Source: a virus
Virus record (IMG/VR): IMGVR_UViG_3300030419_004862
Coordinates: 1-37,864 of that record
DNA length: 37,864 nt
Strand: one strand, 5' to 3'
This document shows, piece by piece, positions 5,926-31,160 of the stretch. Each line of letters opens with the position of its first letter. The stretch's first letter is position 1. Under the pieces are notes generated by a model. The model was given only the letters and a program-made list of their open reading frames with translations, was not told the DNA's origin and did no database searches. The translations under genes and the position numbers were made by a program.

Positions 5926-8154
5926 TTATTGACTAAATTCTGTCGCGGCTCCTGGTCCAAGTGGGCCAATAGCGTTGTTGAGTTCTGGTAATCCACCTTG
6001 GCCTGCGGCTAGAGGTATCTGACCTCCGGGTGGCTGCATGCCTGGTTGTTGTGGTGGCCTTTGCATTGCTTCGTACTGTAGCTCTTCAGGCGTGGGGTTG
6101 AATGCGTCCACTTGTGGTCCTGCGACGTCTACTCCATCAGGGGGGAGTGAGGCTGGTGCGGCCTGTGGCTGTTGTCCGGGTTGTGCTGGTGGAGCTACTG
6201 GTGGCCATCCTTGTTGTCCGGCGTCAGAGTATGGTGTCCACCATGGAACTCCGGCTTGTTGTTGTGACTCTAGGTGATAGTGCCATGCCAGGTGTTTCTG
6301 GAAGAGCATCTTTGTTTCATCGTCTAGCAGTCTGTAGTCTACGCTTTTCATGTAGGACAGCAGTTCATCGATGTGGGTTATGTGGTCTTCCCATGGTTGT
6401 GGGTCTGTCCATTGTCCGTTGGATAGCACGTGGTTTTCTTCACGCGCGTAGTTGCGGTCCCTGGAGCGGTCGCCGTGTATTTTCTCATCGTTACCAAACT
6501 CCATATCTTTCCTGGCCTGCATTTTGACTCGTGGATCGTTTTGATCTCCATACAGACCCAACTGGTACATCTGGAGAACAAGCTCCTGACGAACAGCAAT
6601 GTTTCGGCTGAGCATGGAGAACGGCTGAACCCGTACCTCCGTGTTCTTTATCTTGCTGCGGTAAAAAGAAAACACCTCTAGCTCATTGTTGCGCCCAGAC
6701 ACCCGGAGCATCCTGGACTTGGGCATGTACTCCCTCAACAACAATAACCAGTGACTACACATGTCAGCCACAGCCCCTTCAAGCTCACGCACCGTTGGAC
6801 CAAGTTTGGTGTGGTCTAGCGCGGCAGAGTGCCGTATTGCCCTTCCAGAAAAGCTGGCCGGGGCTTGGCCGCGTGAAACGTCTGATATTCCACTGATGTT
6901 CTCAATGTGCTTTATCTGCTCATTCTGAATGCGCTCGTGCTCAGGGGAGAGTCCGGGTGGAGGCATGGGCATGGGTGGCCTTGATGCCGTCCTGTTGTAG
7001 AAAATGATTTCACCGGGCTCGTCGCTGATGGCACCTTTCTCTACAGACCCCTTCTCGGCAACCCACTTAGGTTGAGCATGAAGGTTTTTGTTTTCAATCC
7101 GCTGGCTCGCAGACTTATTGAGTTCTTTCTGCGCCGGGATTATCGCTTTAACTAAGCCCTCGCCGGCCCATCGACCGGGAACGGTGTTATGACGCACTGC
7201 ATAAAACGGCAGTTTGTTGAACGGTAGGTCGCCTTTCTCAAGAAGGACATCTCCAGCGACCACGGCATAGAGCCCGCGAGGGTTCCTTGGTGACGCCTTC
7301 TCAAAGTACTCCACAATTAAAACACGGTCTAAGGCAGAGTCTTCGTCTCCCGTCGTGCCGCGAAAGTGGCGTATCAACTGTTGGCTAAATGAATCGGATT
7401 CGGCTGTAGATGACGGGTGAACAAACTTACCCTTCTGCGGCCACCGCGCTCGAACGGAATCAATGTGTACGTAGTTTGAGTGGTACATCCAGCGGCATGT
7501 GCTTTTATCTTTGGCTCCTGGATCCCACGACACCTCAAGCGGGTTGACTGCCGAAATAACAACATCACCAGCTTTCCGGGTCTCATAAATACGCGGGTAG
7601 TTACCCTCAGAGTCGGGCTCTGCGTCACTGGGAGTTACATCAACCTCAATGTCCTCACCAAGAGTGGGGTCCCACCATATCTTGAGAAAGCCTATCGGGG
7701 ACACGGCAACCCACTTCGCTAGCTCATGAATGACCTGAGCTGCGCCTGCACGCTCCCATTCGTACTCAAGCATCTTGTCGCACTGACGAGCAGCCTCAAT
7801 ATCATCATCATCGTTGGTCGCCGGAAGACAAATAAACCCAGGACGGTTTTCTGTAAGCTTGCCAACAAACGTCTCCACAGTTGGTAAGACGTAATTAAGG
7901 ACCATACGAACGCGCCACGCGGGCGGGTTGTCGGTGGTCAACACACTTTGAATGCGGTTGAACCGGCTCCACTGATGACCGGTAAGAAAAGCCATCCCAA
8001 GCCACGTGTCTTCTGTTGTTTGTAACTTAGAGCTTTCAGCTATCTGATGCTGCTCCATGACATAGGCTACAAGCTTTTGGTCTGCCACAGATGGGGCATA
8101 TGACGCTTTGGTGTCTTTGTAGTCCTGCGTAATCGGTCCTGATGGAAATGACAT
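5926..8154 (-). CDS. Portal protein (742 aa)
   Basis: The portal is the dodecameric ring at one capsid vertex through which DNA is packaged and ejected. Its length fits P22-like podovirus portals. Diagnostic features are an N-terminal helical region with GHQWSRFNR, then KLTENRPGF near residue 100, NPLEVSWDPGA around 207, and a strongly portal-like stem segment around residues 340-360 (IIPAQKELNKSASQRIENK). The last 100 or so residues are Pro/Gln/Gly-rich and probably disordered. ATG 8154 lies behind AAAGG at 5 bases. It is transcribed with the large terminase, as is usual, but away from the capsid gene, which is not. Confidence 0.9.
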   Translation of the reverse strand: MSFPSGPITQDYKDTKASYAPSVADQKLVAYVMEQHQIAESSKLQTTEDTWLGMAFLTGHQWSRFNRIQSVLTTDNPPAWRVRMVLNYVLPTVETFVGKLTENRPGFICLPATNDDDDIEAARQCDKMLEYEWERAGAAQVIHELAKWVAVSPIGFLKIWWDPTLGEDIEVDVTPSDAEPDSEGNYPRIYETRKAGDVVISAVNPLEVSWDPGAKDKSTCRWMYHSNYVHIDSVRARWPQKGKFVHPSSTAESDSFSQQLIRHFRGTTGDEDSALDRVLIVEYFEKASPRNPRGLYAVVAGDVLLEKGDLPFNKLPFYAVRHNTVPGRWAGEGLVKAIIPAQKELNKSASQRIENKNLHAQPKWVAEKGSVEKGAISDEPGEIIFYNRTASRPPMPMPPPGLSPEHERIQNEQIKHIENISGISDVSRGQAPASFSGRAIRHSAALDHTKLGPTVRELEGAVADMCSHWLLLLREYMPKSRMLRVSGRNNELEVFSFYRSKIKNTEVRVQPFSMLSRNIAVRQELVLQMYQLGLYGDQNDPRVKMQARKDMEFGNDEKIHGDRSRDRNYAREENHVLSNGQWTDPQPWEDHITHIDELLSYMKSVDYRLLDDETKMLFQKHLAWHYHLESQQQAGVPWWTPYSDAGQQGWPPVAPPAQPGQQPQAAPASLPPDGVDVAGPQVDAFNPTPEELQYEAMQRPPQQPGMQPPGGQIPLAAGQGGLPELNNAIGPLGPGAATEFSQ

Positions 8155-8173
8155 ATGTACCTTTTGTTTGTGT

Positions 8174-8593
8174 TTAGGCTCTGTCGCTCATTGGTCCACT
8201 TAGGGACATGGGTGTCGCCGGGAGTGACATCGGCGGCGTATATGGGTCCTGCGAGTTGTAGGTTGATAGCGCTGACGCTGCACCGCCGCCCCATCGATCT
8301 CTAATCCTCTGAAGAGCGGCCTGCAACGCTGGGCTGTGCTCACCAGGACGAGCGCCAACCGTGTCCGGGGGAGTCGGCGCGGATATCGGTGATGGCGTCG
8401 GAGTCTCTAAGCTGGCGGCTTTACTAGCAAGAAACTGCTTTAAGAACTCATCGTTATTAGGCTTTCTGTATACTTGCGGCACCCTCGGGCCACCACTCGT
8501 GGGCTGTCCAGTTATTGCGCCACCTAAAGCATTAAACAAACCACCTATAACATTAGAACCTAGCGCGCTAGCTAATGATGCAGCAAACGACAT
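8174..8593 (-). CDS. Small hypothetical, probable virion-associated protein (139 aa)
   Basis: The start is a TAATG overlap with the gene before it and has GGAGG five bases upstream. Residues 1-35 are a Gly/Ala-rich amphipathic stretch (ASALGSNVIGGLFNALGGA), like membrane-active N-termini of ejection or pilot proteins. The rest is Pro/Ser/Thr-rich and low in complexity, with a helical island (ALQAALQRIRDRWGGG). No family recognised. Its place between terminase and portal argues for a head or ejection role. Confidence 0.65.
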   Translation of the reverse strand: MSFAASLASALGSNVIGGLFNALGGAITGQPTSGGPRVPQVYRKPNNDEFLKQFLASKAASLETPTPSPISAPTPPDTVGARPGEHSPALQAALQRIRDRWGGGAASALSTYNSQDPYTPPMSLPATPMSLSGPMSDRA

Positions 8594-8829
8594 TAAGCAC
8601 CTCCCTCACCACCTGCAACCAACCGGTAATCCCTCTCGAACCCTGCCCTATGCTTGGCATCAAACAGTTCCCAGTGCTGGGATGAGTTGGTTGCGGCTTT
8701 AAGTTTCAAATCCTTGAACTCACTATCCTCGCGAAAATTTCGCGCATAGCAATATAATGCCACGCTAGCACACATAATTGTTACAGAAATCAACGCAACG
8801 CATGAAAAAACAATTAATACAGTTATCAT
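8593..8829 (-). CDS. Small membrane protein (78 aa)
   Basis: The start ATG 8829 shares its A with the TAA of the terminase (TAATG); a GTG two codons upstream (8835) is an alternative, with AGGA five bases before it. Residues 1-30 form one hydrophobic helix (MITVLIVFSCVALISVTIMC), followed by a charged soluble tail (NFREDSEFKDLKLKAATNS) of about 48 residues. No family known. It could anchor a packaging or ejection factor at the membrane. Confidence 0.65.
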   Translation of the reverse strand: MITVLIVFSCVALISVTIMCASVALYCYARNFREDSEFKDLKLKAATNSSQHWELFDAKHRAGFERDYRLVAGGEGGA

Positions 8830-10709
8830 TACCACTTTGTTCCTAGGTAAGTATCGTGACCATCAGGGTATGCAGAATAAAAGCGCTCCCAAAACGCATC
8901 TCTAACATGGGGCTCTTCATCCTCTCTGACAACAGAGACCTCGCCTAACTCCGTGTCAATATAAAGTAGCTGGGCCATTGCAAACACTGCATCGTCATGC
9001 TCACCAGGCATAGCCTCACACCGGCCTCTTGATGTAGTGATAAACGTTTGGCACTCCCTTAGAAGGGTTTCGCTGTGGAAGTCCCAGCTATTGTATCGTA
9101 TTGCACGAGATAGCGCCGCTACACAGGCATCGCGTTTACCCTTGTTTCCCATTCTGAACCCAAACCGCTGGGTCCAATTGCCGCTGGTTGAGCGGACATA
9201 TAGGTTGGGGTAGCCTGCGCCTTTGTTCATCTCTAAAAGATTTTGCAGTGTAGCTAACCCTGGACCATCCACCTCTGGAGACATTAACGCTACGTTGTAA
9301 TGCATTGCTGCGGCTATAGCCTGACTGGCAACAACGTCAGGTGGGCTGCGGTGATAGAACTCAGCAACCTGCTTTCGGTCGGTTCTGTCGCCAACCTGGA
9401 TACAGGAAAAGTCACCCTCGTCGCTGCCGTGTGCCGTGTCAATTGTTACGATGTACTCATGCCCAGGCTCAGGATCAAACCACACTCTCCACCTTGGAGC
9501 GCCCTCGGTTAGGGTGACCTCTTTGGTTCTGGAGTTGTAATCAATGCTTTCATAGGCCGTTGAGGGGGTGGCGTCCTCTGCCATGCCTGTTAGGCGTTGC
9601 CTAATCTTAACCTGATCGATAGGTGAAGACGAAGAAGATGTAAAAGCTATCTCAGGAGACAAAGGAAACTCCGTGTCGAAAGCCTTGATGTCGCCGTCAA
9701 ACTTAGTTAAAAGCGTCTGAACCGCCCACCTGACCTGGCATGGCTTAAGGTCAAACATAATAGCCCTACGCGCCCAACGTTCATCATAGTGTAACTTTTC
9801 AGCTAACCGCCAAAATTCAGACTGATTCTCATCTGCATACGCTTTTCTAAACTTCCGATCAAGCGTTCGGTCTCCAGGTTTTTCTGCTAGTTTGTATTTG
9901 TCGTGATCTTGCCATCCAAAGAAAAAAGCTTTGAATAGGTTGCCCGGTTCTTTTTTGTGCGCTTTCCAGAATCGATCATAAAACGCACCAGCGCTGCCAC
10001 ACGCCGTGGATTCAATGATGACGTATGTGCCGTGCACGTCACTAATGGAGCCCATTGACGACTGCATAACATCAGCATCACTGGTTGTGCGCCGCTTTTT
10101 CCACCACAGCCCAAGCTCGCTAAGATGAAGGTAGTCTGGCGTTGCACCGCGATCAGCATCAGTTGCCCCCTGCGTTTCAACTTCAAACCGGGAATCATGC
10201 TCCCAGTAAATACCCATGTCCCGGCTAGAGCGCTTGTGCTTGCCAGGGGCAATATTTGCAATGGCGGGGTGCTGGTAGGTCTGGTAGCGGTGCGCAATCT
10301 CAAATATTTCCTCGGTCGATTCTTTACGGTGAGCCATGCACTTGGCCAAATAGTGTTTATTGAACTGACACTTCCAATGGCCATAGGCTTCTATAAGGGT
10401 GGAGAATCCAATCTTTCGGCTCTTGAGTATGATCACCCTGACAGGGCGCTTTAGTCGTTCCATCTCAATAAACTCTTCGAGAACTACTTTTTGCTCTGGA
10501 TTCAAAAGAAAAGGAATCATCTTGTTGCGCCCAGTCTCCCTATCCTTTACGCGGATACGAAGACAGTGCTCAGCATAATACTCAAAACTTTTCTTACACT
10601 TATCCCAAAAAGCCTCCGGGGATAAATTCCCAGGTATAGGCCGCAGCGCGTCTTCATCAGACGCGGAACCTTGGGCATCAAAGGGCGACCAATTGGTTGC
10701 TCCGCTCAT
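8829..10709 (-). CDS. terL: Terminase large subunit (626 aa)
   Basis: This is the ATP-driven packaging motor and DNA-cutting nuclease. The ATPase domain has a Walker A-like loop LKSRKIGFST (95-104), a Walker B with Ser-Glu instead of Asp-Glu (YLHLSE, 193-198) and a coupling motif YVIIESTA (229-236). The C-terminal RNase H-like nuclease keeps its acidic residues: Asp424 in VTIDTAHGSDEGDFS, Glu479 in MSPEVDGPG and the EHDDAV motif at 570-575. Length is slightly above typical. No small terminase is recognisable beside it. The ATG has no obvious ribosome binding site and lies close to an AT-rich TTATAT sequence. Confidence 0.93.
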   Translation of the reverse strand: MSGATNWSPFDAQGSASDEDALRPIPGNLSPEAFWDKCKKSFEYYAEHCLRIRVKDRETGRNKMIPFLLNPEQKVVLEEFIEMERLKRPVRVIILKSRKIGFSTLIEAYGHWKCQFNKHYLAKCMAHRKESTEEIFEIAHRYQTYQHPAIANIAPGKHKRSSRDMGIYWEHDSRFEVETQGATDADRGATPDYLHLSELGLWWKKRRTTSDADVMQSSMGSISDVHGTYVIIESTACGSAGAFYDRFWKAHKKEPGNLFKAFFFGWQDHDKYKLAEKPGDRTLDRKFRKAYADENQSEFWRLAEKLHYDERWARRAIMFDLKPCQVRWAVQTLLTKFDGDIKAFDTEFPLSPEIAFTSSSSSPIDQVKIRQRLTGMAEDATPSTAYESIDYNSRTKEVTLTEGAPRWRVWFDPEPGHEYIVTIDTAHGSDEGDFSCIQVGDRTDRKQVAEFYHRSPPDVVASQAIAAAMHYNVALMSPEVDGPGLATLQNLLEMNKGAGYPNLYVRSTSGNWTQRFGFRMGNKGKRDACVAALSRAIRYNSWDFHSETLLRECQTFITTSRGRCEAMPGEHDDAVFAMAQLLYIDTELGEVSVVREDEEPHVRDAFWERFYSAYPDGHDTYLGTKW

Positions 10710-10857: not shown

Positions 10858-11676
10858 ATGATAGACAACGACGTAAACTTAGAAGGACCTGGTGATTCGT
10901 CATCTCCAGAAAATGCGGCACTCCACACGCCCCCGTCAGGCGAAACAGACGAGTTTGTGCCGGAACGCGACCCGGACACGGGTCAGGTCAAGCCTGTTCC
11001 TTATGATCGGTTTCATCAAGTAAATGAAAGATATCGGTCGACTAGAACAGACCTTGAGCAAGCTCAACATAATTTACAATTAAACCAAGAACTTTCCGAG
11101 CAGCTTAGAGCGCAAAACCAGCAGTACGCTAATTTGATTTCGCAGATGCACGAGGCGCAGCAGCGCCAGCCTGTGTATCAGCAGCCAGAGGTTCCTCAAG
11201 ATCCCTATGGGGGTCCTGAGTACGACCCATATGAAGACCCAACCGATGCAAAGATTAGGCAAATGCACGCCCAGGTTAAACAATCCAGGGATGCGCTTTC
11301 TCAACTGCAATCGCAAATGGAATCTCAAAGCAAAGAGTTTGGCATGTACAGACAGGAGCAACAAACTAAAGCACTGGAGCGTCAGATAACAACTGACATC
11401 GACAGTGCACTTAGAGAGTTCCCTGCTGCCAATAAATATTGGATGCACAACGAAATGCTTAGAACTGGCAAGCACGACAGTCAAACCATCAGACTTCTGG
11501 CAAAACGTTCACATGAAGCTCAAGATTCAAAACGAAGAGATTGGGCACGCGCACAGGGATACATTGAGCCGCCACGCAAGCTAATGAGTAGCGGTCCACC
11601 TGCGCAGCAAATTCAAGACCTTGGTGACGATCTTGACGCTATTGAAGAAGCAATTCGGCAAAGGTTCGGAAGCTAA
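10858..11676 (+). CDS. Scaffolding protein (272 aa)
   Basis: It sits directly before the major capsid gene, where phage scaffolds normally lie, and has the usual makeup. The N-terminus is acidic and disordered (PERDPDTGQVKPVPYDRFHQ) and is followed by Gln/Glu-rich coiled coil (about residues 60-100), a Pro/Tyr/Asp-rich linker (PYGGPEYDPYEDP) and a second coiled coil (about 140-185). A basic helical C-terminus would contact coat protein. Scaffolds guide procapsid assembly and then exit. Sequence identity to a named scaffold is not claimed; the call rests on context, composition and coiled coils. Confidence 0.75.
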   Translation: MIDNDVNLEGPGDSSSPENAALHTPPSGETDEFVPERDPDTGQVKPVPYDRFHQVNERYRSTRTDLEQAQHNLQLNQELSEQLRAQNQQYANLISQMHEAQQRQPVYQQPEVPQDPYGGPEYDPYEDPTDAKIRQMHAQVKQSRDALSQLQSQMESQSKEFGMYRQEQQTKALERQITTDIDSALREFPAANKYWMHNEMLRTGKHDSQTIRLLAKRSHEAQDSKRRDWARAQGYIEPPRKLMSSGPPAQQIQDLGDDLDAIEEAIRQRFGS

Positions 11677-18626: not shown

Positions 18627-20639
18627 ATGGCAATTGATTACGGAACAGAAAAGAAAAAGCCTAGACTGAACCCACAGGGTGGCGGTGGCTACTCAATGAA
18701 CTCGAAGCCCCCAACTGCCCCAATGCGGGGTGGTGGTATAGCCGCTTTGGCCGCGCAGCAGGCATCGCGCCAGCCAGCGCCAGGTAACCCGCCAATACCC
18801 ACGCAAACCCCAAGGAGCCTTCTGGGCACCTACGCTCAAAGGGCGACAAAGCAAGATCCGCAGGATATGAAGTTTGGCGGCGGCGGAGGCGGTGGTGGTG
18901 GTGTTCCGCTCCCAACACCGGGCTTGCCATCAGGAACACCTCAGGCTGGACTGGGCGGCATTCCCGTTCAACAGCAGACAAGCGTCGGGCAGCAGCAGGC
19001 ACCGCAGACACCAACAAGCCCAACAGGTCCAGTTGGGGCGCAGGATGCTCCGACAGACCCGCGCGGACCACAGCAGCTACCAGTAAGCCCAACTGGGCTG
19101 GGTGATCCAACAGATCCAGGGAGCCGCAGTCCAGAGGAAGCTGAAGCTGACATCCAGCAATTCCAATTGCTGCAGGCACTACAGCAGGCTGGCGATGCGT
19201 CGTACAGCGTGCGCCCGGAAACAAAAGAGGCACTGCAACAGGGAGTGCAACAAGCAATGCTCCAAAAAGCGTTGACGGGCCAAGCTTTTGATTTCACGAC
19301 CCCACAGGAATCGCAGATGCAACAGGCGTTGACGGGACAGGGTTTTGATTTTACCGCGCCAGATCAATTCAGCAGTGGAGCGTTTACAGAGGACGGGCGC
19401 TGGGTTCCTGGCATGGTTAAAGACCCAAGACGCGCACCAGCAAGACCAGGCTCCGGTGACGACAGAAGGCCGTCAACGATGGCCACTGGCCCTCAAGGCT
19501 CTATCTTAGAGCAGCTTTACAGTCAGATTCAGGGTGAAGACTTTGGGATTGGAGATGAGGCCCAAGAGCTTGAAAAGAACATTTGGAACAAAGCAACTGA
19601 CCTGGCAGCACAGCAGGCAGAGAAAGCCGCGATGATGGGAGTCGGCGGCGCAGGGCTTACGCAGGCCGGGTTTGGCGACATAATGAGCAAAGCCCTGGGC
19701 GAGGCAAGGCAGTTGCAGTTCGACACAGCAAACGTAGCCCTCCAGGATGAGATGGCCAAGATAAGCCTCTACCTTGCGACTGAAGGCAAGAACCTTGATA
19801 GAGACCTGAGAAAGCAACTTGAAGAGAAAAAACTTGCCCTCCAGAAAGAGCAAAACGATCTACTCGCCAAACAGTACGGTAAGAGCGACTTCAACACATT
19901 CGTTGCCGAGGTACTAGGCATTGCAGACCTTAACAAGCTGGGCGTAGGCGCTTTGAAAGAACTCCATGAAGCATGGGGAGACGGCGGCTATGAGGGAGCT
20001 AAGGCTGTGCTGGCTGTATGGGACCAAATAAGCCCGTCAACAGCGGCAGATAAAGCGCCTGGGTTTACCGAGGGTGAAGGCGGCTCCGCAGGAAGCCAGT
20101 TTGGCGTGACAGAGGGGTGGAATCAGCCCCCTGGGAACCAAGTATCAGGAGTGGATTGGAAGAAGTGGCTAAACCCAGAAGAGATTGATCCAGCTCAAGG
20201 CCCAGATGCTGGCAAGGCAGTCGTCGCCCACATGAATACCCTGGGCAGTAAGTTCGCAACCGGCGACGAAGAAACGGTAAAAATGGTCGAGCAGATGTAC
20301 GACGATGTTTATGCGTGGCTGGCCGCTAACCCAGACAAGTCCATTGATGATGCCTTCGGGGTGTTTTTCGATGACATGATAACAGCGTATGAGTCAGCCC
20401 ATATAGGCGGTCGCTGGATTGAGAATCCCATCTGGGAGAACATGTATGATTATCTCTACGATAAAATGCATGCAGACGGCACGCTTCAGGAGTATTACAA
20501 CACGCACTATAAAGAGGACGTTGATGCCGGAACGGGCGATAACTGGCAACCGACCAGGGGGGGTCAGAACAAATCGGCCTTACTAGGGAAGTACCAAAAA
20601 AATGATGAGTATTATTCTCCACCATATGAGGATGTATAG
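18627..20639 (+). CDS. Internal virion / ejection-type protein, low-complexity N-terminus (670 aa)
   Basis: The first of three large proteins between the tail genes and the fibre, where podoviruses keep ejection proteins. Residues 1-280 are disordered: Gly/Pro/Gln-rich, with a nine-glycine run near residue 84 and two copies of ALTGQxFDFT 19 residues apart (DNA 19269 and 19326). Residues about 365-415 form a charged coiled coil (RDLRKQLEEKKLALQKEQND). The C-terminal part is globular and acidic, rich in Trp and Tyr. It ends PPYEDV. No enzymatic motif seen. The GGGGCTACAATG start context recurs at the next gene. Confidence 0.65.
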   Translation: MAIDYGTEKKKPRLNPQGGGGYSMNSKPPTAPMRGGGIAALAAQQASRQPAPGNPPIPTQTPRSLLGTYAQRATKQDPQDMKFGGGGGGGGGVPLPTPGLPSGTPQAGLGGIPVQQQTSVGQQQAPQTPTSPTGPVGAQDAPTDPRGPQQLPVSPTGLGDPTDPGSRSPEEAEADIQQFQLLQALQQAGDASYSVRPETKEALQQGVQQAMLQKALTGQAFDFTTPQESQMQQALTGQGFDFTAPDQFSSGAFTEDGRWVPGMVKDPRRAPARPGSGDDRRPSTMATGPQGSILEQLYSQIQGEDFGIGDEAQELEKNIWNKATDLAAQQAEKAAMMGVGGAGLTQAGFGDIMSKALGEARQLQFDTANVALQDEMAKISLYLATEGKNLDRDLRKQLEEKKLALQKEQNDLLAKQYGKSDFNTFVAEVLGIADLNKLGVGALKELHEAWGDGGYEGAKAVLAVWDQISPSTAADKAPGFTEGEGGSAGSQFGVTEGWNQPPGNQVSGVDWKKWLNPEEIDPAQGPDAGKAVVAHMNTLGSKFATGDEETVKMVEQMYDDVYAWLAANPDKSIDDAFGVFFDDMITAYESAHIGGRWIENPIWENMYDYLYDKMHADGTLQEYYNTHYKEDVDAGTGDNWQPTRGGQNKSALLGKYQKNDEYYSPPYEDV

Positions 20640-20648
20640 GGGGCTACA

Positions 20649-22301
20649 ATGTCAAGAGCACTAGCAGCGTTAATGTCGAGGCGCGAGGCAAAGGCCAACC
20701 GTCAACTGCGAAGGCAGATGGAGGAGGCGCAAATCCGAGCCGCCGCCGCGCGACAGAAGGATGCATTTAAGAACGCCCTTATCCGTCAAGGTATTGGCCT
20801 GCTTGGCAATGTGGCCAGCGGTGTGGTTAGCGATTACATGCCCACGGCTATTGCAAAGAGAGCCGCCCTGGAGCAGCGCCAAAAGCTTGCAGCGGATCAG
20901 GAAAAGCGAAGCAAAGACATGCACACCATGGCATTGATTAGACATAAGGCCGCTATGGACCCAGACGCTTACAAAAACGCCATCACGAGTGAGATGGGGA
21001 AGGAAATCACTGGTGGTGAAATGGGTAGCGGTGGGTCTGAGTTAATACCAGCGCAAGCAGAACAGAGCCCCACAACTCCTCCACCGCACTGGCCCTCCTC
21101 GGTGCAGCGCTACGTTAAGGACTTTGGTGAGACGGGGCGCTTGGGCCTTGGTGATAAAGAGCCAATGCCGCCGCCTGAGGTGTCAAGGCAAGCGATTATT
21201 AACGTCGCGGCAGGGCCACGGGCGGCTGAGCCGTCGAGGCGCGGGGCTGCAAAGATTGATACCCGTAGAGCGAGAGGAACCATAACAGACAAAGAAAAGC
21301 CGACAGGCCCAACTCTCTTTGGTAAAACTATTGAAGAGAACGTCAGAGACTTGACCAGGGCAGATGCAGCCAAGCAACGTCGTGAAGACAGGATAAGGGA
21401 AGAAGGCAGAAGGCACGATGTACAGAAAACCATAGCTGTAAAAGCCCTGACGCGCCGGGGCGGGCACGTTATTGACCCGAGAAAAGTCGCAAATCCCAAA
21501 GATCAAAAAGGCTTTCTTGATTTTATTAAGCTGAAGCCAAAGCACCGGGGAACAGCAGCCAGCCTTTTTGGCCTTAACTTTAATAAACTAACTCCAGAAC
21601 AAAAGCTTAGATACAAGAGGGTCCGTGGGTGGATGAAAAACAAAAGGGTACTTGACCCGCAGATAGCCCACATGCTGACCGCTGATGGCTATGGTGAAAA
21701 CGATGGGGTTCTTAAAGGCTACGTGTTGGGCACCACGGAAGCGCGAGAGGACTACAAAATCGCGAAGCGCGTGGTTACGGAGGGCGGAGACCATAAAATC
21801 CGGCTCAGGGCTAGAATTAAACAGCGCTCTGAGGCTAAAAAAGCTGCCGCAGCCCAATATAGACGCGATAAAAAAGAATACGAGGACGCCTTAAGCGGTA
21901 AAACTGACACTACAATAACGGTCGGTTCGGGCGGCAAGAAAAACGTATCCGCAAGAACAGCTTCGTTCTCAAAAAGACATATGGCTTTACTTAAGGCCAA
22001 TATGGAAAAATCGAAAGCGAAACTTGACGCATTTAGTAAACGCCCTTCCGCAAGAACCACAGGAACGGACAGGCCGAGCAGGCCCAAAAAGAATCGCAGC
22101 TCCAAGGGTGGTGATAAATCATTCCCTGGTTTTAATGAGATGGTTAGAGCGGCTGAGTCAATGAAAGATCCCAAGTTTGCAATGAAAGCAAAACGTGATG
22201 AGATTATGGCAAATCTAAAGAGAGAGAATCCAGACACGCCAGTGGAGCAGCTAGTGCCTGAAGGAAAGCGGCGGCTAAGAGCGTGGAAGGCTAGCCGCTA
22301 G
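20649..22301 (+). CDS. Internal virion / ejection-type protein, basic and helical (550 aa)
   Basis: Starts behind GGGGGCTACA, the same leader as the gene before. The N-terminus is helical and basic (SRREAKANRQLRRQMEEAQI) with one short hydrophobic stretch (GIGLLGNVASGVVSDYM). The middle is proline-rich and disordered; the C-terminal half is dense in Lys and Arg (IRLRARIKQRSEAKKAAAAQ, RPKKNRSSKGG). Strong positive charge fits a protein packaged with DNA and ejected. No catalytic motif seen. The giant gene that follows begins right after its stop. Confidence 0.62.
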   Translation: MSRALAALMSRREAKANRQLRRQMEEAQIRAAAARQKDAFKNALIRQGIGLLGNVASGVVSDYMPTAIAKRAALEQRQKLAADQEKRSKDMHTMALIRHKAAMDPDAYKNAITSEMGKEITGGEMGSGGSELIPAQAEQSPTTPPPHWPSSVQRYVKDFGETGRLGLGDKEPMPPPEVSRQAIINVAAGPRAAEPSRRGAAKIDTRRARGTITDKEKPTGPTLFGKTIEENVRDLTRADAAKQRREDRIREEGRRHDVQKTIAVKALTRRGGHVIDPRKVANPKDQKGFLDFIKLKPKHRGTAASLFGLNFNKLTPEQKLRYKRVRGWMKNKRVLDPQIAHMLTADGYGENDGVLKGYVLGTTEAREDYKIAKRVVTEGGDHKIRLRARIKQRSEAKKAAAAQYRRDKKEYEDALSGKTDTTITVGSGGKKNVSARTASFSKRHMALLKANMEKSKAKLDAFSKRPSARTTGTDRPSRPKKNRSSKGGDKSFPGFNEMVRAAESMKDPKFAMKAKRDEIMANLKRENPDTPVEQLVPEGKRRLRAWKASR

Positions 22302-25300
22302 ATGTCATCACAGCCACCGGTAGAGGTCGATGACGTAGACTTGCTCTTTGAAGAGCTTGGGTACGACAGTAAACCAAAGCCGGTAGACCCGGACCTTGCC
22401 GGGTCTGCCGAAGATGACGTAGACTTGCTCTTTGAAGAGCTTGGGTACCCGCAGCCCGAGCCTAAGCCCGCAGAGGACGTATCACTCCCAGCCCCAGATT
22501 TATCTGACTTCGTTAGAAAGCCATCAGTACATACGCCTGATTTCGCTGCCGAAGCGGGCTTTCGCGGGCGTCTATGGGACCATCTAATATACGAGCACGC
22601 TGAGCCCAAAGATGTATACAAGAGGATAAAGCAAGGGGGCAAAGAGGCAAGAGAGGCTGCTTACCAGGAAGCTTTAGACTCCATGATGGAGGAGGCGAGG
22701 GCGAAAAGCAGGGGTCTCACTCGAGCAAATGTAGAAAGACACTGGGCGGTTCCAGTCTCTGGCCCACGAGTTGGAAGGGGTGGATACGACGCGCCGCCAT
22801 CCACAGAGGCGCATGAGGTTAAGTTTGGCATAGTCCCTTACCCAGGGAAGCCGTTTGTTCAAATTGGAACACGAGGTTTGGTGACAAAGCCCGATCTTGC
22901 AGAGTCAATGGTTGGAAAGCCCCTCATGGCCATTGCCAATATTTTGGACAAGACTCTGGGCCTCGGTCTACCTGGCAGCATTTATGAAGCAGTCGATAAG
23001 AATGTTGCAGAGAAGGTCTTTGGTCTGACCCGATCTAAAGAGGCCAGGGAGGCCGAGATAGCCAAAGAAAAGGCAGACCTTGAAAGGGGCAGTCGTGCCG
23101 CCAGTACCGTAAGACAGCAGCTAATAAAAGAGCATGGGATACGAGACGTGGACGATGATGAGTCCTGGTTCTCAATCAACCCGATAGCAAACCTCTATGA
23201 AACCATTAACCTAACTCCAGCAAGCGTTTCATTGGTCGAGCCTGGAAAGAAAATGCCAGCCCGGTGGGTCAAACCGGGAACCCCTGTGAACTGGGACACC
23301 GCAAAGCATTCAGTCGTAAACAGTTGGGACTTCATCACGGCGTTCCCTGCTGCAACGGTCCAGTTGATAACATTTGGCGTGGACTTTGTGACAACACCCG
23401 ATGAGCTAACTAGCAGGGTGGAAACGATTGGCGGTCTGGTGCCAGAGACATTCGAATACACCGGGAGGCGGGTAGGGCAGTTCATTACAGACCCGGCTGG
23501 GTTTCTCAAAGAGGGCTTTATACAAGCAGGGCTAGATATAGCTGTCCCCTTTGTGGCAGTTAGGTCTGCCGCCCAGCGTGTTGGTGTAAAGAAGCTGCGT
23601 AAAACCCTGAAGGACATGGGGGATAAGGCTCCCCCGGACTTTCGGAAGCTGAACGACATTGATGATGACGCGCAGTTTGTCCGCGAACTCCAGGACACTA
23701 TAAAAAAACATGAGCAAGAAGCAGTCACAGCGAGAAAGAAGGGTATAGAGCTTGCTGATGATTGGCTAGCTTCGGTTGGCACTGAGGGTGGCCGGGAGCT
23801 TAGGGGGGCGCTCCATGCGACTGGCGAGGCTATAGAGACCGAGATCGCATCTGCTGCCAGAAGGGTAGCAAAGGTTGATGTCAGACTAGCTAAAACCACA
23901 GGGGAAATTCTATACACAGAAAGGGCGCGCAAGAACATCGTATCCAACATCACCGCGCTTGAGAAAGAAGTGGAGGCCGCTAGAAAAGCCGTGCCTGACG
24001 CCGAGGCTCCAGAAAGCCTAACCCGAGAGATCGGCAGACTGGAAGCAAGGCTCGACGTTGCGAATACACACCTATCCACACTGCGCGCCGCTGCCTCTGA
24101 AAAGATAGAAGCCGTCGCGTCAAAGCGTCGTGCAGAGGTAGATTCACTTGGGAGGCGAGCAGCGGACCTTGATATGCTCGCTAGTGATATCCGGTTTAAC
24201 TTGAGTCACCCCGAGGGGCCAAGGATATTGAGCAGCTCACCGTTTTATGACGACTACATAAGGGCGTCTAATGTGGCAGAGGGCAAGATTGGAAAGAAGA
24301 GCGCAGCCAATATTAAACAAGCCGAGGCGCAGATGGCGGCAATTGAGGAAGCGGCGATAGCTCATGACAGGACTAGGCTGGGCTCGATTGAGATTCAGGC
24401 CGCAGCCTTGAAAAGAAAAAAGAAGAAGATTGAGCTAACCAATACACCGTCTAAGCTCAAAGAGCAGCAGAGGGCTATACTAGGGAGCAAGCAAACCAAG
24501 AGGGGTATCGAGGCAGAGTCTGCCGTGCTAGTCGCAGAGGCGGAGCTTGGGGCTGCGAGAGAGGCTGCGCGGCGAGCGAAGGCGACTAACGCGGCTAAGG
24601 CACGCGCGCGCGTTTCCACAGCAGAGGCACGGCTAAGCAAGGCAAGGTCCGCGCTGGAGAGGTTTGAGGCTAAAAAACTACCGAGGCTTCAGGGGCTCAG
24701 GACTGGCGTTTTGGAGTTGGCTGCTGAGCGAAATTTTGCTGTTGAGCTTCACCGTGTTTTGTCTGACCGCGCAAAAATGTCCAACGTCCTTGGTCGCACC
24801 AGAGCCCAAAGGGTGGCTGACAACCTTGGCATAAGCACAAAGGGTCGCCCGGAGGTAGGGCAGGCATTTGCGAGGACCCATATTGCTCGTTCAAAAGCAG
24901 TGGAAAAGCACAGGAAACTTGTAGAGGGAATAGAGCAACGGTTCGAGCGTAGAATGCATTTCGAGGATGGCATCAACACCGGATTGAGGCTGCGCTCCGA
25001 CTTGATGGGGAAAAACACTGGTTACTACACGTGGATGGGTATAGCGAACGCAATATCAGAGGCCAACATGGTGCTCAATCCTTTGTGGGGCCCATGGGTT
25101 TTAGCTAACCGGCTGAAGAATAAGTTAATTGAGGGGCCTGGTTATCTGTTTATAAGCGCTAACACCGCGCGGGCCTTGAGGGAGAAGAACTTTCTTAAGT
25201 CGGACAAGGTAGAAGGTCTAGATAGCCGTGGTTTCGGGAGGTTCATTACAGACAAGCTGGACAAGGGTTACCTGCGCCAAAGGCTGCGCGATGCTGACAA

Positions 25301-28184
25301 GGTTATTCCTGAGTTGGTGCAGGGTCTTATGCGTGCGGGGCAGTCCCATGTGGACGCAGCAACCTTTGAACTTCGGGATTGGGCGCTAAAATCCAGGGAT
25401 GACATGATAGAACAGTTTGGCTGGGAGATGGGCGTTAGGGAATGGAAAACGTTTCTGCTTCCAACGGTGCGCGAGGGCCTGTTTTTTGAGCACCGGAGCA
25501 TGAGGGCTCATTTCAACAGAGAGCTTACCGAAGATTACACAATAAAGTTTAGCAGAAAGTCGAAAGAGCAGATGGCAAGGGAGGGGTTCGGAAAAGAGGT
25601 CGGGGAGTTAACCAAGGAAGCGGAAGAAGTTCTTGAAAGAAAGCTGATTATATTAAACAAACACGCAGCCGGTTTGCATGACATAACAAGAAACCGCGTC
25701 ACTGAGCTTGGGTTAGATCTTGGGGCTTTTGATGATGCAGCTCGCATTAATAAGCGAGTGTGGCACCCGCAACTCTTCAACGATATGGACGCACTCTCCG
25801 CTATGGAGGTGGCTGACCAGGCTATTACCGGCAAAGCACTCCGCTACTCTGCACTTAGAGGCAGAGGTGTACCCATTGAGGCCAGGGAAACCCCGAGGGG
25901 GGTGCGGATAGATGAAAGTGCAGCATGGTTTAAGGCTCTAAAGAACGATAACCCAAAGGTGTATGACGAGCTAAAGCAGCGCAACAAAAACATAGACATC
26001 AAAGACTCACCGGTCGATCAACGGGGCGGGTGGGGCATGACCACGGATGCGCTTGAGGAGGTTCTGATAGGCATCCCGGATGCAGCCAGAGACTTCCAGA
26101 ACATGGCCATGTTTAAAGCCATTGAAGACACCATGGGGACAGCGAACCCTTTGATGTCGATGGACCCATTGAAAAAAGACGCAGGGTGGAAAAGAGCGCC
26201 TGATGTAATCCCTGCCAAGGGCTTTGGTTACCGCCTTAAGGACATAGAGGTTAACGACGACTTTTGGGGAGCGTTGACCAAGAAGCGCAATAAAGATGGA
26301 GTTGTGTCCAACGAGATTACGGCTCAGCGGGCGTATTTACACCCAGACCTGTACTGGCACTTGGTGGCCACAGAGCAGTTTGCCTCTTACAACAGGTCAG
26401 CGACAGGGAGGGCGCTCAACTATTGGAAAGCGTCTAAGACTATCGACTCTCCTGGATCTCACTTTACCAACTTTATTGCCAACCCTCTGTTTCTCGCACC
26501 AGCCGCTGGCCTTGCCATCTACAACCCAGCCAACTGGGGCGTAATCCTTGAGGGCGCTAAGGCGCTGTTCACAGGCCCCGGTAAAAACAAATACTACAAG
26601 GAGTTTATCTTGCACGGCGGCCTGGGGCGCAAAAGAGGCATTGGTCGCTCCGACATTGCCCAGGCATCTGACACGGTGATGGGCATCCTTTACGAGGGTA
26701 TAATCAAGGAAGCCCAAAAGGCGGGCCGTAGCGGCCCCGGTGTGGTCCTGAAGAGCATTGAAGACGCTGGGCAATTGCTTATGAACAGCCCTGATGGGTT
26801 TATGGCTCTTGTGAAGGGGGGCAAAAACACTAACAAGCTCACGGCACTTAAGTATGTCACCAGGGAAAGCTTGGTAAAAGCCCACGAGTCGTGGATAAAG
26901 ATTCAGAATGTGGCAGGGGTAGCGTATGAATCTGGCGATAGGTTTTGGCGCATCACCAAGTTCATACAAGAGCGCAGACGCGGGGTACCTGCAGCCGAGG
27001 CTGTGCAGATAGCACGTAAAGCGTTTGCGGATTATGAGAATCTTGCTGGCATCTTCAACGTTATTAGACAGTCATGGTGGGGCGTTCCGTTTCTTGCGTA
27101 TGATGCTCGCGCTATTCCGCAATTTGTGGACTTCATGAGGAGGTCGCCGCACATCGCCCAGATGCATGTCATCCTCCACAACTACCTGTCTGACATTAAC
27201 ATGGCCAGGTCTGGCATCGACTTTGGGGCTGCGGCAGAACACGTTGACACGTACAAAGACCTGCTCCCCTGGTACTACCGGGATAAGCTCATACCGTGGG
27301 CCATGATTAATCCAGACGCTGGAACAACGGCACGCGGTGGAATAAGGTTCGTTGACTTCTCAAAGTATGCTTCCGGTGCGCGCTTTATACCGCTGTTCGA
27401 TGAGATTGAGCGGTGGGATGAAGGCATGAAGAGAGAAAGCTGGTTTGGTGAAGAGGTGAAGAAGGAGGGCCTCCTGCTTGGCACTGGCGCTAAAGAGTAC
27501 CTCACGAGGGCAGTGGGCGGCTCGTCCCCAGGTTTGACGCTAGCACTCCTTGCTGCGGGCATTGACCCAAAATACAAGCGGGAGATTGGTTGGGACGAGA
27601 TGAAGGAAAGGTTTATGGAGATGTTGTTTCCCAACTTCCCATTACTCCCAGGCAGCTATAGCTACAACAGAATAAAGAGCGCTGAAATGATGGAGCCCAG
27701 GGCGGGCCTAGCTTTCGGTGAGTCGCCTGAGCAAGCCTCGAGGGCTACGTGGTATGGCGTTGTGGACTTGGATTACACCCTAAAAGAGGGCTATGCTAAC
27801 GCGTGGAAGAACAGGCTGCGCTCTGCGCCAGAATGGGCAACGCTAAAGAATAGGTTTGGTCAAACAACCTACAGAATGTTTAAGAAAAAACAAGGGAGAC
27901 TAGGTCGCTGGCAATCTGGTAACATGCGTTTGCTGACTGACGCCTCCATGCCACCCGGTCTCACTGTGGATGAGAAGAAGTCTTATATAAACGCTTTGTA
28001 TGAGGCCAATCCTGCGAGGCGGCAGAAGTATTTGGAGGAGGTCATGAGCATATTTGAGCCAGAGCTGAACGAATTACAGGAAATAATGAAGATGGCAGGT
28101 GCACTCCAAGGGGGAGACCTGGGTGAAATGAACATACCTCTGGAGACCGTCCGAAAAGCGGTTAAAGATTTTAGTATTAGATAA
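22302..28184 (+). CDS. Giant internal virion / ejection protein (1960 aa)
   Basis: The largest gene of the phage. It begins with two identical DDVDLLFEELGY motifs at residues 10-21 and 38-49, encoded by a 36-bp perfect repeat. Residues about 480-920 form a long Ala/Glu/Arg/Lys-rich helical coiled-coil region. Later come aromatic, partly hydrophobic segments, including KTIDSPGSHFTNFIANPLF and GLAIYNPANWGVILEGAKAL around 1370-1410, then RQSWWGVPFLAYDARAIPQF around 1590. I see no lysozyme or transglycosylase motif. Size, position and make-up match the large core protein that extends the podovirus channel across the envelope (as gp16 in T7). Resemblance to large polyvalent phage proteins is possible but unchecked. 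Confidence 0.7.
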   Translation: MSSQPPVEVDDVDLLFEELGYDSKPKPVDPDLAGSAEDDVDLLFEELGYPQPEPKPAEDVSLPAPDLSDFVRKPSVHTPDFAAEAGFRGRLWDHLIYEHAEPKDVYKRIKQGGKEAREAAYQEALDSMMEEARAKSRGLTRANVERHWAVPVSGPRVGRGGYDAPPSTEAHEVKFGIVPYPGKPFVQIGTRGLVTKPDLAESMVGKPLMAIANILDKTLGLGLPGSIYEAVDKNVAEKVFGLTRSKEAREAEIAKEKADLERGSRAASTVRQQLIKEHGIRDVDDDESWFSINPIANLYETINLTPASVSLVEPGKKMPARWVKPGTPVNWDTAKHSVVNSWDFITAFPAATVQLITFGVDFVTTPDELTSRVETIGGLVPETFEYTGRRVGQFITDPAGFLKEGFIQAGLDIAVPFVAVRSAAQRVGVKKLRKTLKDMGDKAPPDFRKLNDIDDDAQFVRELQDTIKKHEQEAVTARKKGIELADDWLASVGTEGGRELRGALHATGEAIETEIASAARRVAKVDVRLAKTTGEILYTERARKNIVSNITALEKEVEAARKAVPDAEAPESLTREIGRLEARLDVANTHLSTLRAAASEKIEAVASKRRAEVDSLGRRAADLDMLASDIRFNLSHPEGPRILSSSPFYDDYIRASNVAEGKIGKKSAANIKQAEAQMAAIEEAAIAHDRTRLGSIEIQAAALKRKKKKIELTNTPSKLKEQQRAILGSKQTKRGIEAESAVLVAEAELGAAREAARRAKATNAAKARARVSTAEARLSKARSALERFEAKKLPRLQGLRTGVLELAAERNFAVELHRVLSDRAKMSNVLGRTRAQRVADNLGISTKGRPEVGQAFARTHIARSKAVEKHRKLVEGIEQRFERRMHFEDGINTGLRLRSDLMGKNTGYYTWMGIANAISEANMVLNPLWGPWVLANRLKNKLIEGPGYLFISANTARALREKNFLKSDKVEGLDSRGFGRFITDKLDKGYLRQRLRDADKVIPELVQGLMRAGQSHVDAATFELRDWALKSRDDMIEQFGWEMGVREWKTFLLPTVREGLFFEHRSMRAHFNRELTEDYTIKFSRKSKEQMAREGFGKEVGELTKEAEEVLERKLIILNKHAAGLHDITRNRVTELGLDLGAFDDAARINKRVWHPQLFNDMDALSAMEVADQAITGKALRYSALRGRGVPIEARETPRGVRIDESAAWFKALKNDNPKVYDELKQRNKNIDIKDSPVDQRGGWGMTTDALEEVLIGIPDAARDFQNMAMFKAIEDTMGTANPLMSMDPLKKDAGWKRAPDVIPAKGFGYRLKDIEVNDDFWGALTKKRNKDGVVSNEITAQRAYLHPDLYWHLVATEQFASYNRSATGRALNYWKASKTIDSPGSHFTNFIANPLFLAPAAGLAIYNPANWGVILEGAKALFTGPGKNKYYKEFILHGGLGRKRGIGRSDIAQASDTVMGILYEGIIKEAQKAGRSGPGVVLKSIEDAGQLLMNSPDGFMALVKGGKNTNKLTALKYVTRESLVKAHESWIKIQNVAGVAYESGDRFWRITKFIQERRRGVPAAEAVQIARKAFADYENLAGIFNVIRQSWWGVPFLAYDARAIPQFVDFMRRSPHIAQMHVILHNYLSDINMARSGIDFGAAAEHVDTYKDLLPWYYRDKLIPWAMINPDAGTTARGGIRFVDFSKYASGARFIPLFDEIERWDEGMKRESWFGEEVKKEGLLLGTGAKEYLTRAVGGSSPGLTLALLAAGIDPKYKREIGWDEMKERFMEMLFPNFPLLPGSYSYNRIKSAEMMEPRAGLAFGESPEQASRATWYGVVDLDYTLKEGYANAWKNRLRSAPEWATLKNRFGQTTYRMFKKKQGRLGRWQSGNMRLLTDASMPPGLTVDEKKSYINALYEANPARRQKYLEEVMSIFEPELNELQEIMKMAGALQGGDLGEMNIPLETVRKAVKDFSIR
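22329..22448 (+). repeat. 36-bp perfect direct repeat in the giant gene
   Basis: Bases 22329-22364 and 22413-22448 are identical, 84 bases apart (28 codons, in frame). Each encodes the acidic motif DDVDLLFEELGY. Identity at the third codon positions shows a recent duplication or conversion. Confidence 0.85.
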
Positions 28185-28568: not shown

Positions 28569-31160
28569 ATGGGAACACGATACGGCACTCGTCAGGGCTT
28601 GAGTCGCTCAGCAGCTAAGGCCGCCAAAGACTTGGCAGATGGAACTCTCACCACCACAACGACCAACATTGAGTCAACTACGGTCACGATTGACGACAAG
28701 AATATAGAGCTTGGCTCTACTGACAGTCCATCGGATTCAACGGCAGACGGCGGCGGTATCACACTTAAGGGCTCAACGGACAAGACCATCCTTTGGGAAA
28801 ACGATGACGATAAGTGGCACCTTAACCAAGGGATTACCGTAAGCGACAGCACTACAGGTAGCGCCAATACCGGTGGGTCGCTAAGGCTTTCCGCAAATGA
28901 TGGAAATCCTATGGGGGACAGCCACAGGCTCGGCGTGATCGAGTTCACCGGAGCAGAGGATACAAGCAACACACAAGTTGTTGGCGCACGTATTGAGGCG
29001 TTGACGGATGCCGCGTGGACAAACGTAGAAAACGGGACCGCGTTGTACTTCTACACCACGGACGGTGACGCTTCACAGCACAACGTTTTGAAACTAGACA
29101 GTAACGAGAAGGCTACGTTTTCTGGTGATGTTGACATCACTGGTGGCCTACAGTTTGATGGCGGCACAGCAGTCACCTCTATAGACACAGACCTAAGCAG
29201 CGTTTCAGGCAGTGATGATACCTTGGCAAGCGCCAAAGCCATCAAAGCTTACGTGGACTCAGAGGTTGGTGGCGGTGGTGGCGGTGGTGGCGGCATGTCT
29301 AACTTCGTTCTTGAGGACGATGACGGCACAGAGGTCACTATAGCTGACGCTAAAGAGGTGAAGTTCATTGGTTCTGGTATAACCACCAACTGGACGGATA
29401 CCTCTACTGGTTCAGACGGCGATCCATATGACTTAACCTTCACCGTTGATGCAGCCCAGACTGGCATTACTTCCTTGTTGGCTACCGATATTAAAATCGG
29501 TGAAGACAACGAGACTAAGATTGACTTTGAAGATGCAGACAAGATCAATTTCTACGCGGACAACACAAAGAGCGTGTCCATCACAGACCATGGCCTAACT
29601 AGCCTCGGTGGAGAGATTGAGTTTGGCAACGGCCAAGAGGCAACTCTTGCCGTAGATGCAACAACAGGCACCAACACAGCAGGCAGAGGGCTTACAATTA
29701 AAGCTGGCGCTGGAACGGGCTCTGGTGCAGGTGGCTTTATCTACCTCCAGACTGCTGACGCAAGCGGCTCAGGCAGCAGCACCAACTCTCACTCCACCGC
29801 ACTCACTGTTACCAACGGCGCTCTCCAGATGGGCAGTGACCATAACTGCGAACTAAGCATTGCCGCAACCGCACATAATGTCGCCGGTAAGAAGCTAACA
29901 CTAGCAGCCGGGGACACCACTGCCGGAACAACAAGCAACATAGCCGGTGGCGACGTTGAGATTGTGGCTGGCAAAGGCAAGGGAACGGGTGCGGGTGGAG
30001 AGATTATCTTCAAGACGGCTCCCGCTAGTACCTCTGGCCACACCCCGTTGAACAGTCACGCCACTGCGCTGACAATAGAGTCCTCTGGCTTGCTTCATCA
30101 CGCGAAGGGTCTTCAAAGTTCATACACTGCGGTCACTAGCAATACCACGCTAGACGACAGCCACTTCATTGTACAGGCTTCTCGCGGTGTCGAGATTACA
30201 CTGCCTGCAGTTGGCTCAAAGACTGGTCGCTGGTACTTCATTACCCGTGTAGATGACGGTACGTCTAACGGCGTTATTGATATCGAGGCAGATAGCGGTG
30301 AAACCATCGAGGGCAATGACCTTTACCACTTAGAGTCAGATGGCGACGGCGTTGCCTTGTACAACAACGGCTCGAAGTGGATTGTCATGTGGGAAAAGAA
30401 AGCTCCAACCCGTGCAGGGTTTACTCCAACTGACGTGGAAAACTGCGTCATCTGGCTGCGAGGCTATGCTTCTGGCGAGACCGCATCAGACTTTATGACA
30501 ATGGACGGTAGCGATGTTGGTAGCTGGCTAGACCAGTCAGGCAATTCAAACCATGCGTCAAATGCTGGAACACTTGCTCACCCAGCCACTACCACCGTAA
30601 ACAATCACACGGTCCCAGAGTTTACCGCTGGCGATGTATTGCACCACGCCACAAACGTTTTTGAAGATGATGATGAGCCCTTCACTTTATTCACTGTCAT
30701 AAACACAAGTGGAAACGCCCCAGCAAGCACCCACATTTTCGGCACTGGCAGTCACGCGGATGGCTACTTGTACAGCGAAGACGAGAATGGTTTTGGTAAA
30801 AAGCTTTTTGTTGATGACTCTAACAGGGCTGGGTTTGCCATGTTAAAAACCGATGCCGGGGCTGAGACGATAAACAGGTCTCACACGCTAAACGGCACTG
30901 AGGTTCTTATTGCTTCGTACGGCGGGCCAGGTACGTTAAAACTTGACGGTGGTGCGAAGAAATGGACGGTCAGTAAGTCCGAGCTTGGCGAAGATCAGGG
31001 GTATACTAAATTAACTATCGGAGCTTCCAGTGGTAGCGGGGTTGATTACGCTGTTGATGGCTTTACCGGCAGTATCTGCGAGGTAATCGTGTACCAACGT
31101 GCGCTAGACCACAGCGAGATTGTGTTAGTTAGAGACTACCTGCTTAGCCGCTGGACATAG
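28569..31160 (+). CDS. Tail fibre / receptor-binding protein with LamG-like C-terminal domain (863 aa)
   Basis: The N-terminal part is Thr/Ser/Asp-rich beta (TVTIDDKNIELGSTDSPSDS) and holds repeated 'KATFSGDVDITGGLQFDGG' style fibre segments. A nine-glycine linker lies near residue 234. Repeats with AGRGLTIKAGAGTGSGAGGF and GGDVEIVAGKGKGTGAGGEI occupy about 370-480. Residues about 617-863 form a concanavalin/LamG-like sandwich: VENCVIWLRGYASG, SWLDQSGNSNHASNAG, FTLFTVINTSG and GSICEVIVYQRALDHSEIVL. LamG-like domains bind sugars, so this probably recognises the host surface. It is the last gene before the lysis cassette. Confidence 0.75.
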   Translation: MGTRYGTRQGLSRSAAKAAKDLADGTLTTTTTNIESTTVTIDDKNIELGSTDSPSDSTADGGGITLKGSTDKTILWENDDDKWHLNQGITVSDSTTGSANTGGSLRLSANDGNPMGDSHRLGVIEFTGAEDTSNTQVVGARIEALTDAAWTNVENGTALYFYTTDGDASQHNVLKLDSNEKATFSGDVDITGGLQFDGGTAVTSIDTDLSSVSGSDDTLASAKAIKAYVDSEVGGGGGGGGGMSNFVLEDDDGTEVTIADAKEVKFIGSGITTNWTDTSTGSDGDPYDLTFTVDAAQTGITSLLATDIKIGEDNETKIDFEDADKINFYADNTKSVSITDHGLTSLGGEIEFGNGQEATLAVDATTGTNTAGRGLTIKAGAGTGSGAGGFIYLQTADASGSGSSTNSHSTALTVTNGALQMGSDHNCELSIAATAHNVAGKKLTLAAGDTTAGTTSNIAGGDVEIVAGKGKGTGAGGEIIFKTAPASTSGHTPLNSHATALTIESSGLLHHAKGLQSSYTAVTSNTTLDDSHFIVQASRGVEITLPAVGSKTGRWYFITRVDDGTSNGVIDIEADSGETIEGNDLYHLESDGDGVALYNNGSKWIVMWEKKAPTRAGFTPTDVENCVIWLRGYASGETASDFMTMDGSDVGSWLDQSGNSNHASNAGTLAHPATTTVNNHTVPEFTAGDVLHHATNVFEDDDEPFTLFTVINTSGNAPASTHIFGTGSHADGYLYSEDENGFGKKLFVDDSNRAGFAMLKTDAGAETINRSHTLNGTEVLIASYGGPGTLKLDGGAKKWTVSKSELGEDQGYTKLTIGASSGSGVDYAVDGFTGSICEVIVYQRALDHSEIVLVRDYLLSRWT

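Follow-up and report, generated by a model that had tools for sequence, protein, structure and literature searches.

A virus record of 37,864 bases (the window, i.e., the whole stretch of DNA analysed here) was found to encode a putative giant ejection protein of 1960 aa that carries the same 12-residue word twice at its N-terminus. Comparison with relatives and with the giants of a second group of phages, the HMO-2011 type, revealed that what recurs is the doubling and not the exact word, the copies matching each other within a protein and differing between phages. Based on this pattern, the repeated word in the flexible N-terminal part of the giant may serve as a multivalent docking peptide directed at a fast-changing partner, a reading whose chance we put somewhat short of even. 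The features concerned are the following:

18627..20639, plus strand: 670-aa neighbour, first of the putative ejection trio (position conserved in relatives)
20649..22301, plus strand: 550-aa neighbour, second of the putative ejection trio (position conserved in relatives)
22302..28184, plus strand: ORF of 1960 aa, putative giant ejection protein, third of the 670-550-1960 aa trio
22329..22364, plus strand: copy 1 of DDVDLLFEELGY, residues 10–21
22365..22412, plus strand: 48-bp linker DSKPKPVDPDLAGSAE separating the copies
22413..22448, plus strand: copy 2 of DDVDLLFEELGY, residues 38–49, 36/36 nt the same as copy 1
22473..22490, plus strand: possible degenerate third element EDVSLP, residues 58–63 (pairwise alignment, by eye; weak)

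The nucleotide sequence GATGACGTAGACTTGCTCTTTGAAGAGCTTGGGTAC is present twice with 36/36 identical positions and a start-to-start distance of 84 bp, and both copies lie in frame, so that the translated word falls twice inside the first 49 residues of the protein. This confirmed the original prediction of a perfect in-frame duplication of 36 bp at the start of the giant. Since neither the 16-residue linker nor the outer flanks match each other, the repeat comprises exactly 12 codons. In a self-match test, the highest-scoring ungapped alignment of the first 100 residues with themselves was compared with 200 shuffles and with the remaining windows of the same protein. The pair outscored 200/200 shuffles and each of the 36 other windows, and its N-terminal score of 51 stood against 23 for the runner-up among the 33 ORFs of the window tested, so that a comparable N-terminal doubling was absent from the other 32. 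As the copies show no synonymous change at all (0/36 bases differ), the doubling or rewriting was recent, in agreement with what had been predicted for this phage.

The N-terminus of the giant is rich in proline and acidic residues, and V12, L15, F16, and L19 of the word place hydrophobic residues at i, i+3, i+4, and i+7, a spacing that, by inspection, resembles that of a short amphipathic helix. When residues 1–400 were modelled with AlphaFold, residues 1–66 formed coil, but pLDDT was below 50 in 392/400 residues (mean 33.7) because the alignment comprised two sequences, which is at best consistent with the claim that the N-terminus is otherwise disordered. For the C-terminal 711 residues, mean pLDDT was 36.9 with five sequences in the alignment. 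Elsewhere in the window, a simple repeat was seen at 29267–29293, where TGGTGGCGG occurs three times as a glycine run in an 863-aa putative tail-fibre protein.

The label of the 1960-aa protein as a putative ejection protein, packaged and ejected, derives from gene order and position. The capsid protein of the window matches PHROG 14242 and the SU10 capsid model, its portal matches P22_portal, and a terminase is recognisable. A hub-like protein (P0007) is followed by the 670-550-1960 aa trio, an order also present in the relatives read over the corresponding stretch, and the giant is the last and largest member of this putative ejection run after the tail-hub genes. Database searches with the giant gave no family at E<=10 in Pfam and only two matches (E 6.4 and 9.9) in PHROGs, hence no homology to any named ejection protein family in these two collections. 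The whole protein had no match among 50,697 annotated phage records, six peptide patterns from it found no relative in IMG/VR, and a C-terminal alignment found none in GTDB genomes. Two stretches, K.SKTI..GTH.TN..GN...APAG and R.AFADYENL.G.F...R..WWG..F.AFDAR, are shared in the C-terminal third of the giants (window 26049–28181 and P0010, P0011, P0012, and P0016), and both can be used to find further members. Portal and terminase (5926–10709) are encoded on the minus strand and scaffold and capsid on the other, as is the case in the nearest relatives L002 and L026. Other loci, e.g., L003, L004, L014, and L018, have terminase, portal, scaffold, and capsid all on one strand, and it looks like the terminase-portal block was inverted in the lineage of the window.

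The capsid query yielded 25 IMG/VR loci and the capsid profile 40; a detectable relative of the giant was present in 6/25 records and, with a C-terminal profile, in 4/13 (12 of the 13 new). Twelve N-termini were tested, namely those of the window, of eight giants with sequence similarity to it (G001, G011, G008, G021, G010, G028, G030, and G036), and of three (G004, G009, and G033) that have no sequence match to it and were chosen by gene position and size. Five giants, those of the window, G001, G011, G008, and G021, outscored 200/200 shuffles as well as all remaining windows of the respective protein, with two to five copies of a private N-terminal word. Thus, G001 has PPYDEVEV twice after PSYDDVVL, G011 the pair DIFDEIGEDIGV / DIFDTIARDLGV, G008 four copies of EDYRQFTIGDP (or one residue off) plus DYRDFEIGPP, and G021 four copies of PYQLPPL. 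Three giants were borderline, namely G036 (SFTYL twice; 4/200 shuffles as good), G028 (6/200), and G033 (LFDDFL/LFADFL/LFEEFL, the best pair matched by 12/200), and no doubled word was seen in G010, G004, G009, and G030, where 91–138 of 200 shuffles were as good. The count of copies in relatives that had been proposed as a check gave, with the window included, five doubled giants out of twelve, three borderline, and four with none.

The exact word of the window occurred in none of the other 11 giants tested; tblastn with the first 60 residues gave one weak match (E=2), and a degenerate DNA pattern of the word gave none in IMG/VR. It is therefore absent from the homologues found, the outcome that the original prediction had named as refuting it, but several of these carry other doubled words in its place. 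The closest relative of the giant, G001 (39% identity), has a possible single cognate, YDDVVLPEEGEGY, by pairwise alignment, and the putative third element EDVSLP bears a weak resemblance to its YDDVVLP. By eye, a loose core [LI]F[DEA][DET][LIF] is common to the window, G011, and G033. The copies of G008 at residues 31, 49, 64, and 79 have 10–11 of 11 residues in common and differ by 4–7 synonymous codons; pairs with the copies at residue 12 of G008 and residue 92 of G033 were left out of the codon comparison.

A second group was reached via the hub protein, which led to the cultured Roseobacter phage CRP-345, whose giant gp40 starts DFLNFLN...GFLDFLN. tblastn with gp40 found five phage records, including CRP-345 itself and HMO-2011 twice. 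A profile search gave 394 IMG/VR loci, the best 80 of which were kept and tested together with L099 (81 loci; the truncated L100 and L101 were left out). The N-terminus was complete in 75/81 loci, corresponding to 55 distinct proteins at 80% over 100 residues. Among these 55, from the best 80 of 394 loci plus L099, 33 giants beat at least 190/200 shuffles, and in 30 the N-terminal window was the best of its own protein. Examples are the pairs REALRQQLRRR/RDTLRAQLRRK, EELLKQMDA/DDLLKQMDA, and FVPFASKL/FVPFSAPL, and three copies were recognised by eye in L162, L167, L174, and L179. The remaining 22/55 giants fail singly, nine of them (L110, L139, L141, L149, L150, L157, L173, L176, and L178) with more than 100/200 shuffles as good, and the giant of CRP-2 has no word pair. 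Altogether, doubling is more consistent and frequent in the HMO-type giants than in the family of the window.

The words range from acidic to basic (basic, e.g., in L135 and L167), and some are strongly like-charged (REALRQQLRRR, SLKDKLKARR, FDDAFEEDDD), so that the acidic character noted in the original prediction does not hold as a general trait. In L130, residues 30–64 form a plain tandem array of five copies of VVIDKEP where other HMO-type phages carry a spaced pair; this low-complexity array was kept in the own-versus-swapped and codon counts and scored as a pass among the 33/55. Alignment of HMO-type and window giants with hhalign revealed no detectable homology (0.1% probability; shallow profiles), and therefore the feature presumably either arose twice or is very old. 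Another doubled N-terminal element was observed in L105 (13027–14139), where HTVC010P gp17, a pelagiphage gene near tail genes, starts RLNDAGFSQKEI...KLNSAGFNNQEI.

Matching within rather than between proteins was measured by comparing residues 1–25 with residues 26–75 in the 55 HMO-type giants. Own pairs had a mean score of 28.02, as against 18.31 +- 0.58 for swapped pairs, and none of 20000 permutations was as high. The own partner ranked best of all 55 in 18 proteins and among the top three in 31. Composition-shuffled own segments gave 18.02, with 50/55 proteins above their own shuffled mean, and five internal positions of the same giants gave pair scores of 15.45–19.00. In the 35/55 giants with a pair score of at least 26, the median copy spacing was 33 residues. 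The doubling is nearly restricted to the giant: ORFs of at least 250 aa in the same loci (n=102) reached a score of 30 in 0/102 cases, compared with 23/55 giants, and of 26 in 4/102 compared with 30/55 (rank test 1e-16, uncorrected for relatedness). Nor is a doubled N-terminal word common to ejection proteins at large, since it was lacking in 12 other giants, matched by 19–165 of 200 shuffles, namely P22 gp16, epsilon15 gp17, SIO1 gp26, F116 p60, those of Jasmine, Shocker, and DS1, the Manatee Spring genomes ct52p938, ctLwi270, ctEqG8, and ctf1B273, and a Helicobacter pullorum prophage.

The age of the copies was judged from their codons. In the 22/55 HMO-type giants with a score of at least 33, synonymous differences were seen at 75 of the 162 codons that encode identical residues (0.46, as against 0.55 expected if codons were independent), and 51 aligned residues differ between copies; L130 and L179 show no synonymous difference. 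Since the residues were picked for similarity, these figures indicate age and constraint and give no exact rate. Synonymous drift with matched residues argues in most cases for selection on the peptide and not for recent duplication or gene conversion. Thus, the copies are mostly old in the HMO-type giants, with the window as the recent extreme. At least two copies with amino acids held against synonymous change, as in a multivalent motif, were found in some relatives and in HMO-type proteins, and the copies in the window are too recent to display such conservation. The putative docking peptide of the original prediction hence receives indirect backing, since some relatives and the HMO-type family carry a short word two to five times at the corresponding N-terminal position and preserve its residues despite synonymous change.

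Were the word to act as a multivalent docking peptide, the individual copies would occupy equivalent sites of a repeated, symmetric partner, and two or more copies would provide the avidity that repetition suggests, holding the giant in the assembling head until ejection. Because the copies stay matched while the word differs between phages, the binding site of the partner would have to change fast, with both copies following, and in the phage of the window the second copy would have been made or rewritten recently. The likeliest partner would be another component of the ejection assembly, i.e., the 670/550-aa proteins or the portal-adaptor channel. A bolder version, which we regard as rather unlikely, is that the self-matching, lineage-private pair, present in at least two groups without detectable homology, engages a symmetric partner of the ejection machine at several points, like a lock whose two sides coevolve fast. 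As a private key, the pair would exclude foreign ejection proteins from the particles of a mixed infection and limit the exchange of modules.

Candidate partners were sought in several ways. None of the other ORFs of the window matched the word better than expected from shuffled words (best score 26, against 29 at the 95% point of this null). In HMO-type loci, the adjacent upstream protein hardly matches the N-terminus of its own giant better than swapped ones (25.25 vs 24.56 +- 0.38; 185/5000). An exploratory covariation scan of 30 loci, uncorrected for multiple tests, gave best partial r values of 0.35 (the giant's own N-terminal third) and 0.32 (the end of the upstream protein), and no clear partner emerged. 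The HMO-type coat was matched in 10/16 records with 71–93% identity, one of them split and nine full matches at 75–93%. Five scaffolds were found in nine loci, plus that of CRP-345, and these are closely alike though the words differ. Given this conservation, coat and scaffold are not obvious partners for specificity, and we prefer an ejection protein or the portal-adaptor channel. The split coat gene belongs to G041 (L189/L190) and consists of two overlapping pieces, one with two internal stops, reflecting a frameshift, an intron, or an assembly error. The C-terminal tail of the scaffold (window 11617–11676; L002–L059), D[FLY]G[DE][DNS][LM]xxAEAAA-like, is conserved in most relatives read. 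Mimicry of the word by the scaffold was considered as a general rule and found unsupported, as scaffold motif and sequence are kept while the words differ.

The words could instead be an encapsidation signal that binds scaffold in the procapsid and is released when the scaffold leaves, as proposed for P22. There, incorporation of gp7, gp16, and gp20 is described as requiring scaffold, with the portal dispensable (available text of PMC8402733), and gp16 is affected by the N-loop of the scaffold, with docking proposed to take place at the inner end of the scaffold column (excerpt of PMC12005531). The scaffold tail of the window contains DDLDAIEEAIRQ, whose faint resemblance to the word scores 20 and stays below the null. 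The conserved C-terminal motif is kept, however, in L002, L009, L012, and L022, whose giants bear quite different words, and the likeness of coat and scaffold among HMO-type phages with differing words speaks against it in the same manner; we consider this signal unlikely. Variation of the words over such similar coats and scaffolds would suit peptides that, once ejected, bind a host protein and turn over with the host, since ejection proteins are reported to enter the host (PMC8954989, in part). Two matched copies would, however, require a repeated host site, and a host target appears clearly improbable. Free drift with matched copies would also be explained if the copies stuck together or to those of neighbouring subunits, so that any matched sequence would serve; the like-charged words named above should repel each other, however, and the AlphaFold model with its low pLDDT in 392/400 residues offers no structural support, which makes such pairing very unlikely. 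A functionless repeat, produced when a disordered N-terminus free of constraint recently underwent slippage or recombination, would fit the identical copies in a region rich in proline and acid, the plain tandem expansion of L130, and the four family giants without a doubled word, but it was already disfavoured and has a very low probability, given relatives whose copies hold amino acids as codons diverge, own pairs above swapped ones in 20000/20000 permutations, and 0/102 other ORFs scoring 30.

If the word is a multivalent docking peptide, it would bear on how ejection proteins are recruited into heads and retained until ejection, which is poorly known. A position-specific, copy-matched pair offers a testable handle, as it names residues to delete or swap and predicts which proteins are interchangeable, and covariation of the words across the 394 HMO-type loci could reveal the partner from sequence alone. 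Besides, a duplication that seems trivial and recent in a single genome can represent one state of a system that is maintained. Short packaging signals at the N-terminus are already known; matched, lineage-private, repeated N-terminal words are new to our knowledge, and searches of open-licence PMC papers pointed to no doubled N-terminal words in ejection proteins.

Among known systems, the capsid-targeting signal of T4, which a prohead protease removes, is present in a single copy, unlike the two to five copies of lineage-private sequence in the giants described here. The T4 IpIII sequence is likewise a short N-terminal peptide on a packaged and ejected protein, ten N-terminal residues being enough for packaging (PMC8402733, in part). 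In P22, the consecutive genes of gp7, gp20, and gp16 encode three ejected proteins in a place like that of the trio in the window; gp16 has no doubled N-terminal word (41/200 shuffles as good), and the window giant, with no PHROG family match, is three times longer. Residues 1–314 of gp20 and 21–154 of gp7 direct incorporation into procapsids, and removing residues 1–20 from gp7 changes little (available text of PMC8402733), so that the extreme N-terminus is not the packaging signal in P22, a point against the docking reading. The ejection proteins of P22 are placed at the scaffold column's inner end (excerpt of PMC12005531). In N4, 12 fragments, fitted as residues 1–16 of the ejection protein gp52, line the lumen of the head-tail adaptor before ejection, likewise a short N-terminal peptide docked on a symmetric ring; unlike the window giant, gp52 is not the giant protein of its phage, and a repeated word is not mentioned for it in the accessible part of PMC12633501. 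Taken together, the P22, T4, and N4 precedents lend plausibility to a docking peptide at the N-terminus that engages a symmetric ring. The closest architecture is that of the HMO-2011, CRP-1, and CRP-345 giants, many members of which carry a private word two to three times among their first ~80 residues; unlike in the window, these copies are mostly old, homology with the giant of the window was not detectable, and CRP-2 lacks the pair. Outside phages, BRCA2 and HSF2BP, a eukaryotic system that differs in having a known partner, provide an example in which a cryptic motif, present as a repeat, binds to an oligomer (PMC8322138, in part).
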